Shown one piece after another: positions 26,943 to 40,067 of a DNA stretch of 40,088 nucleotides. Below the pieces are notes generated by a model. That model did no database searches. It saw nothing but the letters and a program-made list of their open reading frames with translations, and was not told where the DNA came from. Source of the stretch: a virus. The translations under genes were made by a program, and so were the position numbers. The stretch is from positions 1-40,088 of the IMG/VR virus record IMGVR_UViG_3300009379_000002, one strand, 5' to 3'. Within the stretch, counting starts at the first letter, position 1. Each line of letters opens with the position of its first letter.

Positions 26943-27263
26943 CTATTCGGCTAAATAAATTCTGCTTGCACTGATTTCCAGATTTGTGTCTTTTTGCTCG
27001 TACCGCTGAAATTTGTATCTGTCATCCGGCTCATCCTCACACCTGACCGCGTAATGGATTTGACATCCTGCGATTATCATTTCAGATCCTTCTTTGCCCA
27101 CGACAAGAAACCAGTTGGTGCTCGGCGCCTGCGGTGTGAATCCGAATAGATCCTCAGTCGTCTTCATGTGGCATGTTCCCCAAGCTGAACTATATTGTTC
27201 TCCGTCCGGCGCGACAAACCAGCGGTCTGTTGTGATTAGATATTTCTCGCCTGATTTAATCAC
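26943..27263 (-). CDS. Hypothetical phage protein
   Basis: 106 aa, beta-rich and aromatic (KSGEKYLITTDRWFVAPDGE; TPQAPSTNWFLVVGKEGSEM). Soluble, no Cys-rich motif or membrane segment. It overlaps the start region of the upstream gene at the shared 28-bp junction repeat. No family recognised. Confidence 0.55.
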   Translation of the reverse strand: MIKSGEKYLITTDRWFVAPDGEQYSSAWGTCHMKTTEDLFGFTPQAPSTNWFLVVGKEGSEMIIAGCQIHYAVRCEDEPDDRYKFQRYEQKDTNLEISASRIYLAE

Positions 27264-27543
27264 TGTTCACCTCCTGAGATTCTTTGAGTTCCAGATAAGC
27301 TGAATGGTATTTTTTTACAAGGCCCAGCAGACTATCCGACCACGCTTTATATCCCTCTCTGTTGTTCTCAATAACCACTCCTTGCAAACTTTGATATGTC
27401 TCCTCCGCTTCCTCAAATTTTGATTTTTTGATGAAGCCTGCCTGTTTAACATTGTGGATAAATAGATTTTTAAACCCTGCATTGGGCATCGTTCGCTCAA
27501 AAAACTCCCGCGCTTCCTGTTCATTATTGAAGTATATTTTCAT
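27256..27543 (-). CDS. Hypothetical protein, junction-repeat gene
   Basis: 95 aa, alpha/beta (MKIYFNNEQEAREFFERTMP) with a helical middle (ESDSLLGLVKKYHSAYLEL type). Its last residues LKESQEVNSD come from a 28-bp repeat that also ends the next upstream gene. The repeat supplies the ribosome binding site (AGGAGGTGA) for the following gene. Function unknown. Confidence 0.55.
   Translation of the reverse strand: MKIYFNNEQEAREFFERTMPNAGFKNLFIHNVKQAGFIKKSKFEEAEETYQSLQGVVIENNREGYKAWSDSLLGLVKKYHSAYLELKESQEVNSD
27265..27292 (-). repeat. 28-bp gene-junction repeat, copy 1
   Basis: Perfect copy of 27545-27572. It codes the ELKESQEVN ending of one gene and carries AGGAGGTGA for the next. See findings. 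Confidence 0.9.
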
Positions 27544-30172: not shown

Positions 30173-30199
30173 AAGCATCACCTCCAATTTATTTAATGT

Positions 30200-30343
30200 G
30201 ACGGGGGCGGGATTCGAACCCGCGCACTCAGAGCCGACGACTTCTCCTGCCTTGCGGAACTTTATTTTACTCTGCTTAGTTCCTACGACTTTTTCATGCG
30301 CGGAGATGCCGCCGGTGGCGTCTACCAGTTCCGCCACCCCGCC
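30200..30343 (-). tRNA. tRNA-like gene with extended helix instead of anticodon arm
   Basis: Read on the minus strand: acceptor GGCGGGG (30343-30337) pairs with CCCCGTC (30206-30200, one GU). Leu-type D arm GCG-GAACTGGTAGA-CGC is intact, T arm GCGGG-TTCGAAT-CCCGC is perfect. In place of the anticodon stem, CCGGCGGC-A-TCTCC (30315-30302) pairs with GGAGA-A-GTCGTCGG (30247-30234): 13 bp with an A-A mismatch, enclosing a further hairpin (30256-30283). There is no anticodon loop with U33. The 3' end is followed by ACA, not CCA. Likely an RNA gene folded like a tRNA but not a decoding tRNA. Confidence 0.6.
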
Positions 30344-35782: not shown

Positions 35783-36535
35783 TTAACGGATATACTTCCG
35801 AGCTGCCTTCAGAAATTGATATTCCATGAACGACTCGATTAAGGCATCCAGAGATTTTTCAAAATTATGCTGCCCTTTAACATGGATTGCTGATTTTCCC
35901 AGTGTCCGGATCATGGTGGTTTTATTTCCCTTCTGAGCATAAATTCCTTTGCCATTGCTGAGCGGGTCGAAGATAAAAGGCTTTGTAAGATCCCATTTTT
36001 CAGCTTTTTTGTATTTGTTCATGATAGCCCACTTCTGACCACGGGCATTAAATTTGTCATTATAACCAAACCGTGTCCCGCCAAGCAGGAGAGACTGCGT
36101 CCCTTTGTCGAGTCGGAACCTGGGAGAGATTGGCCTCGCATTGCTCGCCCCTGGTCGTGCAGCATTCAGAGGAACAGGCACATTACCAAGCGTCATGGGG
36201 TTTCCGTGCTTGATCCCACCGTCTTCCTGTATGCCGAGATAATGGTCTTTCCCGCCTCGCTGCTTCCGGACAACGACTTTTGCATCTATTTTTGGCAGGG
36301 GTCGAATCGTGCCGTCCTTTTTTTTCGCATGAGCAGGGAAAACTTTTGTGCTCTTCAGTGTGTAATGATTCCGGATTGTGAAATCCCGTTCCAGCCGCCT
36401 GAGATAGTCCCAATTCTGAACTTTTGCAGCAGCGGTCAGTGTGTCAGCTCCGGCCATGTTTAACAGCCCGTGGTTCTGAGCGAGCCATTTAATCATTTTT
36501 TCGGAGTTGTCTGTGTATTTGATTAAGTCGTTCAT
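35783..36535 (-). CDS. Hypothetical protein
   Basis: 250 aa. Helical N-terminus (MIKWLAQNHGLLNMAGADTL), then a beta-rich middle with repeated Gly/basic turns (VVVRKQRGGKDHYLGIQEDG; GGTRFGYNDKFNARGQKWAI), ending in a helical tail. The style recalls phage minor structural or connector proteins (YLGIQEDGG-like), which is odd in an early operon. No confident family. Confidence 0.45.
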   Translation of the reverse strand: MNDLIKYTDNSEKMIKWLAQNHGLLNMAGADTLTAAAKVQNWDYLRRLERDFTIRNHYTLKSTKVFPAHAKKKDGTIRPLPKIDAKVVVRKQRGGKDHYLGIQEDGGIKHGNPMTLGNVPVPLNAARPGASNARPISPRFRLDKGTQSLLLGGTRFGYNDKFNARGQKWAIMNKYKKAEKWDLTKPFIFDPLSNGKGIYAQKGNKTTMIRTLGKSAIHVKGQHNFEKSLDALIESFMEYQFLKAARKYIR

Positions 36536-38250: not shown

Positions 38251-38453
38251 TCTGCGCTGTCTGCGCTGTCTGAGCTGTCTGCGACTTCGCCGATAATTTC
38301 CGACCGTTCAAAACTCGCGCCCATTCGTCCGTAAGATTCAGAGTCTTTGAATTTCCGAATTGCCTCTTTTTTTGATTCGACATTTAGATAGTCCGTGGAA
38401 TTGTATTCTTTATATCGGTTTGGTTTCGTCGAATAATGGATTCTTACATTCAT
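38247..38453 (-). CDS. Small hypothetical protein
   Basis: 68 aa. N-terminal beta-alpha part (RIHYSTKPNRYKEYNSTDYL) then acidic end (DSSDSADSAE). ATG-type overlap with its neighbours. Unknown. Confidence 0.45.
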   Translation of the reverse strand: MNVRIHYSTKPNRYKEYNSTDYLNVESKKEAIRKFKDSESYGRMGASFERSEIIGEVADSSDSADSAE

Positions 38454-38728
38454 TGATTAGCCTCCTGTGGTGTTTCTTTCGATGTTTCTTTCGCTACAAA
38501 GAAAAAAATTGAATCTTTATCGAAACGGGCTTTTTCCGCCCTGTATTTGAATTTCTTTTTCATGGCTTCAAAATTCCAGATAGCGCCGAAGGTGTGAACC
38601 CATTCGATGCTCCCGCATGCAGGTCGATAATTTATTTTTATAATTTTGTGCTCAATGCCCGTGCGTTTTTCAATCAGCCTGTCCCCTGGGGCTAGCTCAA
38701 GATTGTGTTTCAGCCGAATGTGTTTCAT
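38450..38728 (-). CDS. Small hypothetical protein
   Basis: 92 aa, beta-rich (LELAPGDRLIEKRTGIEHKI) with a basic C-terminal stretch (KKKFKYRAEKARFDK). First gene after the non-coding tRNA-like region; GGAGACAAAGGG precedes the ATG. A hairpin (38754-38777) sits just upstream. Unknown. Confidence 0.5.
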   Translation of the reverse strand: MKHIRLKHNLELAPGDRLIEKRTGIEHKIIKINYRPACGSIEWVHTFGAIWNFEAMKKKFKYRAEKARFDKDSIFFFVAKETSKETPQEANQ

Positions 38729-38836: not shown

Positions 38837-38908
38837 GAAAGTCCTGTCAGGAACAGCATACACTGTTTTTGCCGGACTCTTAACCCTGTTTGAATGATGT
38901 TTAGATTG

Positions 38909-38953
38909 ATTGCTCTTCCCGTGTCAATTCACGTCCAAACATTCAAGAGCAAT
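38909..38953. other. Nested inverted repeat after tRNA-like gene B
   Basis: ATTGCTCTT (38909-38917) and AAGAGCAAT (38945-38953) form a perfect 9-bp stem. Inside, CGTG-TCAATT-CACG makes a second stem. It begins three bases past the 3' end of the tRNA-like gene. A leftward TTGACA (38922-38927)/TCTAAA (38900-38905) pair with 16-nt spacing also lies here, so it may hold a promoter. Confidence 0.45.
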
Positions 38954-38955
38954 TT

Positions 38956-39092
38956 GACAGTGGCGGGAATTGAACCCGCGCGATCAGGGCTACACAGTCA
39001 TGATATTATTTTGTCGTTGAAGCTAGTGCTGTGTGACTCAAATACCACCTGTTCGTTTAATACTCCTGCTGTTTCCATTTCAGCACACTGTC
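38956..39092 (-). tRNA. tRNA-like gene B, abnormal anticodon region
   Basis: Acceptor GACAGTG (39092-39086) pairs perfectly with CACTGTC (38962-38956). D-arm-like CTG-AAATGGAAA-CAG, T arm GCGGG-TTCAATT-CCCGC perfect. GGAGT then ATTAAAC looks like a Leu(UAA) anticodon stem/loop start (T33, TAA), but there is no matching 3' strand in the normal place; the next 90 nt are extra sequence containing ACACAG...CTGTGT. The D-arm sequence GTGCTG also complements CAGCAC inside. So the tRNA shape is kept at the ends but the decoding part is not usable as is. Confidence 0.6.
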
Positions 39093-39190
39093 ATTTTTGC
39101 CGGATAACGCTCCGGCGGGCGGCGGTCTTTGCCAGCTGTCATCATACGTTCAAAAGTTGATCTAATCGTATGGCCTTCTTTGAGCCATGC

Positions 39191-39283
39191 GCCCCCGACG
39201 GGATTCGAACCCGTGTAATCTGCTATGGTCTTACTCAGCTATTTGCCTGTGCCATAACAGGGTGCCGCCTCGCACACAAGGGC
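39191..39283 (-). tRNA. tRNA-like gene C, shortened D and anticodon arms
   Basis: Acceptor GCCCTTG (39283-39277) pairs with CGGGGGC (39197-39191, two GU). T arm ACGGG-TTCGAAT-CCCGT perfect. D-arm TGC-GAGGCG-GCA has a loop of only six nt. The anticodon-like hairpin CCTGT-TATGGC-ACAGG has a six-nt loop, not seven, and no normal anticodon. Its loop TATGG also complements CCATA (39228-39224) downstream. The variable region is ~30 nt with a direct repeat of ATAGC(T/A)GA(G/T)TA. 93 nt in total. Confidence 0.6.
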
Positions 39284-39372: not shown

Positions 39373-39624
39373 CTATTGACCGAGAGGTGTATTATTAAAA
39401 CCGCCAAGCCTCCGTCTTTGCATTTGCTCGCATCTAATTTTTGTCATTATGCCTTTTGTGGCAATTGCAAGTTTCCGGTCTTTGGTTATTTCAACATCGA
39501 TATTGATGTCATCCGTCCTGCCGGATTCCTGAAGGCTGGTAACTTCTTTGTAGCTTTTAAGAGCCTCGTCTACAACGAAGTCAAGAGCGTTAATTTCCTT
39601 CTGCATAACTGGCGCTTTATTCAT
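39373..39624 (-). CDS. Small hypothetical protein
   Basis: 83 aa, mainly helical at the start (VMQKEINALDFVVDEALKSY) and with a Arg-rich end (KIRCEQMQRRRLGGF). Its start overlaps the previous stop (TAATG); behind AAGGAG. Unknown. Confidence 0.5.
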   Translation of the reverse strand: MNKAPVMQKEINALDFVVDEALKSYKEVTSLQESGRTDDINIDVEITKDRKLAIATKGIMTKIRCEQMQRRRLGGFNNTPLGQ

Positions 39625-40067
39625 TACCGAATCTCCTTTAATATTTTATTTTTTTTACGTAAAATTATAAGTGCTTCAACTAACGGCTTGATTTCTTCGG
39701 GACAGGTGTTGAGATTGAAGCATTCACCGTTAATTATTATCCTGTTCTTTTTGCGATGTGCTTTCCGACACTCAGAAATTTTATCTTTATTCTTTTCGGA
39801 ATATTCCTTTTTATATTCAGAAATTTTATCTTTATTCTTTTCGTAATATTCCTTTTGCCATTCAGCAAGTTTCTCTTTATTCTTTTCGTAATATGCTTTC
39901 CGCCATTCAGCAAGTTTCTCTTTATTCTTTTCGTAATATGCTTTCCGCTGCTCAGCAGCACATTTCTTGCATTCCGCTTTTAGCCCGTCTTTTCCGGTCG
40001 GCTGCTCATAAAACTCCTCAGCTCCCTTAACCTCTCCGCACTTACTACACTTCTTTTTCTTCACCAT
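39624..40067 (-). CDS. Zinc-ribbon protein with 15-residue repeats (HNH-type N-terminus, no HNH)
   Basis: 147 aa. N-terminal zinc ribbon CSKCGEVKGAEEFYEQ with CKKCAAEQ (residues ~7-38), as in phage HNH-associated proteins, then four 15-residue repeats beginning YYEKNKEKLAEWRKA (residues ~44-103). No HNH domain follows; the end is a helical segment. It may be an HNH relic or a DNA-binding scaffold. First recognisable leftward gene at the right edge. Confidence 0.6.
   Translation of the reverse strand: MVKKKKCSKCGEVKGAEEFYEQPTGKDGLKAECKKCAAEQRKAYYEKNKEKLAEWRKAYYEKNKEKLAEWQKEYYEKNKDKISEYKKEYSEKNKDKISECRKAHRKKNRIIINGECFNLNTCPEEIKPLVEALIILRKKNKILKEIR
39759..39938 (-). repeat. 45-nt tandem repeat
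   Basis: Four in-frame, imperfect 45-nt units coding KAYYEKNKEKLAEW-type blocks. Copy number may vary between isolates. Confidence 0.8.

Follow-up and report, generated by a model that had tools for sequence, protein, structure and literature searches.

Three tRNA shells in a phage genome, one of them with an 88-nt segment in place of the anticodon and variable regions

The window analysed here, i.e. the whole 40,088-nt stretch of IMG/VR record IMGVR_UViG_3300009379_000002, contains on its minus strand a 138-nt tRNA shell, E2 (positions 38955–39092). We consider that E2 may be a non-decoding tRNA-derived RNA with a retained role, one of three in this phage, and give this reading a probability of roughly 0.48; decoding by E2 is unlikely. 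Its support comes from the anatomy of the element, the recurrence of such shells within this genome, and a single comparable Leu-like element carried by a related phage. In the proposed scheme, i) E2 retains the acceptor stem, D hairpin and T arm, which form the elbow and acceptor portions of a tRNA, while the codon-reading arm is replaced, ii) its 5' end would be cut by the host RNase P, iii) its 3' end would be trimmed and CCA added as in tRNA, and iv) the outcome would be a stable RNA presenting the 88-nt centre as an effector or spacer, with no codon decoded.

Anatomy of E2

Read directly, E2 has the layout GACAGTG-T-GCTG-AAATGGAAA-CAGC-(88 nt)-GCGGG-TTCAATT-CCCGC-CACTGTC-A (Table 1). The perfect acceptor and T arm named in the original prediction were confirmed, as were the D-arm-like hairpin and the ATTAAAC heptamer directly after GGAGT. 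E2 scored 33.1 bits as a tRNA in Rfam (gathering score 29), where the D arm is followed by a large insertion in the alignment, and ARAGORN called no tRNA in the 40-kb window, E2 included. Among the features of tRNA membership, the 7-bp acceptor stem and a T arm with a TTCRA loop are present, and a 5-bp anticodon stem with a 7-nt loop and U33 is absent; the D arm forms a hairpin with GG in its loop, its linker and position-26 spacing being irregular.

Table 1. Positions of the tRNA-like elements in the window and of the parts of E2
Feature	Positions	Strand	Basis
E1, 94-nt tRNA-like gene	39190–39283	minus	Structure scan; whole-element fold z = -2.60
E3, 145-nt Leu-like tRNA-like gene	30199–30343	minus	Structure scan
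E2 acceptor stem, 5' strand GACAGTG	39086–39092	minus	7/7 Watson-Crick with 38956–38962
E2 D-arm-like hairpin GCTG-AAATGGAAA-CAGC; U8 at 39085	39068–39084	minus	MFE fold and Rfam tRNA alignment; GG in loop
E2 GGAGT + ATTAAAC, Leu(UAA)-like 5' half of anticodon arm	39055–39066	minus	Direct reading
E2 88-nt central segment in place of anticodon and variable regions	38980–39067	minus	Fold z = 0.18 versus shuffles
E2 T arm GCGGG-TTCAATT-CCCGC, perfect	38963–38979	minus	Direct reading, fold, structure scan
E2 acceptor 3' strand CACTGTC + A73; CCA not encoded	38955–38962	minus	Direct reading and fold
9-bp hairpin directly downstream of E2	38909–38953	minus	Fold z = -2.95

The central segment begins with AGGAGTATTAAAC, which resembles the 5' half of a Leu(UAA) anticodon arm and has U33, UAA and A37 at about the right distance, so that a Leu(UAA)-like front half, as proposed, is plausible. 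The claim that no usable anticodon stem is present was borne out: the sole candidate 3' strand for GGAGT in the 88-nt segment is GCTTC, which would form two G-U pairs and leave a 39-nt variable region. About 90 extra nucleotides had been predicted; the segment between the D and T arms measures 88 nt, an excess of ~50–60 nt over a normal tRNA. The proposed pairing between GTGCTG of the D arm and CAGCAC of the insert exists as complementarity, but at chance level, since 18% of shuffled inserts equalled it (p = 0.18). The centre folded no better than shuffled sequence, and no antisense target for it above chance was detected within the phage. An open frame with its ATG in the D loop runs for 26 codons and stops before the T arm; used as a protein query against phages, it gave no match.

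An exact 11-nt repeat, TTTTTGCCGGA, is present at 38866–38876 and 39094–39104. Both copies are followed on the minus strand, at short intervals, by CAGTGT and GCTG and are perhaps a partial duplication of the E2 start and its leader.

Further shells in the window and their background frequency

The window was scanned for shells consisting of a T arm, a 7-bp acceptor, U8 and a D stem with GG. Exactly three matches were obtained (E1, E2 and E3), all on the minus strand in intergenic stretches, and these contain the sole three T arms in the 40 kb. E3, the third shell, was absent from the original prediction. None of 60 dinucleotide-shuffled versions of the window contained a shell, compared with 3 in the real sequence; the E2 shell is thus far beyond chance. 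A similar scan, with slightly different cut-offs, of other phage DNA totalling 1.17 Mb (some slices overlapping) recovered six distinct normal tRNA shells and no expanded one; it serves as a rough background because the loci had been gathered for other purposes.

E1 consists of an acceptor stem (GCCCTTG/CGGGGGC), a D arm, a 9-bp central helix (CUGUUAUGG/CCAUAGCAG), a 5-nt variable loop, a T arm and G73. E3 has an acceptor stem (GGCGGGG/CCCCGTC), a Leu-type D arm, a T arm and A73, and its central helix (CCGGCGGC/GUCGUCGG) runs on as UCUCC/GGAGA. Both central helices sit directly after the D stem, and the central domains are more structured than chance (fold z of -3.06 for E1 and -2.44 for E3 versus shuffles). 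The G-U wobbles in the stems of both elements still pair.

Relatives and host

Exact DNA patterns of the E2 T arm/acceptor and of the E3 D arm had no match in IMG/VR; that of the E2 D arm had two, both in coding sequence and judged to be chance. BLAST of E2 against phages, plasmids and 26 genomes from the same order as the Spirochaetales MAG described below returned short matches only, which, where inspected, were T arms of tRNA or tmRNA genes or coding sequence; several of the T-arm matches in the Spirochaetales-order genomes were tmRNA 3' ends. None of these pattern and BLAST searches revealed a homologue of E2 itself.

As protein queries, the ORF at 38450–38728 found no relatives among viral contigs, nor did the capsid among genome contigs. 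The protein encoded at 39624–40067 on the minus strand, with repeated YYEKNKEK-like units and matches to HNH/endonuclease VII families, gave 73 loci and was uninformative as to kinship. One phage contig matched solely through this repetitive protein (L032, 1435–1650) carries a Leu-like tRNA whose anticodon region is enlarged and, in addition, a very short tRNA-like element; neither was called by ARAGORN or by Rfam at the gathering score.

Terminase searches of viral contigs yielded five relatives in one case and 41 in another, mostly distant. Two terminase relatives also occur in bacterial MAGs that bear the labels Spirochaetales and Spirochaetaceae, which suggests a spirochaete host. In the nearest relative found, with 64% terminase identity, the gene homologous to 35783–36535 of the window is followed downstream by a 105-nt Leu-like element, which has a CCCAC-AAC-GTGGG hairpin replacing the canonical anticodon arm, and beside it by a normal tRNA-Tyr. 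The Leu-like element lies at a different position in the gene order from those in the window. It scored 35.7 bits in one scan and was unlisted at E ≤ 1 in a later scan of the stretch; because of this and its bulged T stem, it is weaker than E1 to E3. Between it and the tRNA-Tyr, a strong hairpin ending in CCA (GCCGGGGAG...CTCCCCGGCACCA; L098, 8036–8075) was observed, which none of 200 shuffles folded as well as.

Three other contigs contained features worth recording: 1) In a distant relative (L141, 1400–1560), a tRNA-Gly-like gene is represented by its 3' half (anticodon arm, T arm and 3' acceptor strand), which is probably a phage attachment site. 2) L057 has, on the minus strand (~190–230 of the reverse complement), an acceptor/T-arm minihelix, TCTCCTGG..CCAGGAGA, with a perfect T arm, adjoining a normal tRNA. 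3) In L075 (714–1349), an ORF that closely precedes the terminase resembles part of it at its end (ERTPYLREIVDGLCEISKIKEVVF...), perhaps through partial duplication.

Alternative explanations and known systems

It is quite possible that E2 is a dying tRNA-Leu pseudogene, which lost its anticodon half through recombination or indels, has no function, and owes its intact stems to the recency of that event. The resemblance of the front half to tRNA-Leu(UAA) as far as position 38, the unstructured centre, and the mixture of normal and odd tRNA genes in one cluster of the related phage are all consistent with such decay. However, three separate elements in one genome keep their acceptor, D and T pairing, with wobbles that still pair in E1 and E3; the centres of these two are long helices above chance; and the 3' strand of the anticodon stem, which a single insertion would be expected to leave in place, is absent in E2. 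The fully Watson-Crick acceptor and T stems of E2, despite the lost anticodon arm, are not predicted by long neutral decay. Constraint on the shells is favoured because perfect stems are retained and the centres of E1 and E3 are structured, and is weakened because no homologue of E2 was found and its centre is unstructured. The same points bear on a retained role for E2, as the missing homologue leaves it with no covariation support and its centre has no antisense target above chance in the phage; the relative's element, with its bulged T stem and different position in the gene order, also counts against such a role.

A tRNA-Leu(UAA) with a removable intron or insert that yields a working tRNA is improbable. 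In its favour, GGAGT-ATTAAAC is compatible with the anticodon loop of a tRNA-Leu(UAA), and its spacing from the D arm is approximately correct. The only 3' strand on offer is GCTTC, with its 39-nt variable region. When every single internal deletion leaving 71–92 nt was judged by ARAGORN, 36 of 715 E2 variants were recognised as tRNA, compared with 4 to 488 in 20 shuffled-insert controls, 18 of which exceeded E2. Rescue was no better than with shuffled inserts and so gives no support to a simple intron or insertion. The original prediction of a tRNA "interrupted or expanded" within the anticodon region holds in its second part, the region being expanded, but its first part is not supported, because the anticodon stem lacks its 3' strand instead of having it displaced. 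Excisions from E1 were recognised more often than those from its controls, mainly through an 8-nt-loop "atgg" reading. No intron family of Rfam passed its gathering cut-off anywhere in the window, nor was any named in the 900 bases around E2; no splicing enzyme was named among the 24 window proteins scanned, mostly from the early region. A match of the 27256–27543 product to a tRNA-intron endonuclease (SEN2-like) profile was weak, fell below the curated cut-off and was discounted.

Like E2, tmRNA (RF00023) has tRNA-like ends around a large inserted domain, and the open frame in E2 and the tmRNA 3' ends among its T-arm matches would fit a miniature tmRNA-like molecule, with a tRNA domain and an internal frame. 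This is nevertheless very improbable, as E2 is 138 nt long versus about 350 nt, has no listed Rfam tmRNA match, carries C3-G70 by direct reading instead of the G3-U70 needed for alanine charging, and possesses a D stem, with no tmRNA-like P2 helix evident in the predicted fold; a 26-codon frame is not unusual by chance. Phage attachment sites usually carry only the 3' part of a tRNA; derivation of E2 from a host tRNA or tmRNA gene as such a site, which the tRNA-Gly 3' half of L141 resembles, is hardly credible for an element with a matching 5' acceptor strand and D arm, and no integrase was named among the 24 window proteins scanned.

The preferred reading, a non-decoding RNA with a retained role, has counterparts in known systems. 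The pseudo-tRNA tRNA-Other of Bacillus cereus, also tRNA-derived, has a role outside translation and shows that such relics can gain functions; it is chromosomal with a Trp anticodon (PMC3399842), whereas E2 is phage-borne, lacks the anticodon arm and is known here from sequence alone. The layout of E2 matches that of the engineered "tRNA scaffold", in which acceptor stem, D arm and T arm are kept and a foreign insert replaces the anticodon stem-loop; the scaffold, however, is man-made, with an insertion region designed to keep a hairpin (PMC3753655), and E2 is natural, with no stable helix above chance in its centre. E2 resembles phage tRNA genes in its placement among early-region genes and in the likely Leu origin that it shares with E3, but has no decodable anticodon arm, whereas the relative has an intact tRNA-Tyr. 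No description of a phage tRNA shell whose anticodon arm has been replaced was found in the literature searched (titles and the beginnings of abstracts, with partial coverage), so novelty is a cautious judgement.

More speculatively, and with rather low confidence, phages of this lineage may use natural tRNA scaffolds, the shells being kept for processing and stability and the arm exchanged for differing effectors (E1, E2, E3 and the relative's Leu-like element), which would together constitute a class of small RNAs in phages. Such genes can be overlooked or misread by standard gene finders, ARAGORN having called none in the window. If the shells are relics, decoding would be the first property of phage tRNA genes to go, and the shell the last. 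If, instead, the shells are functional, phages would have invented the tRNA-scaffold design, and anticodon-less tRNA-like RNAs may be more widespread than annotated.
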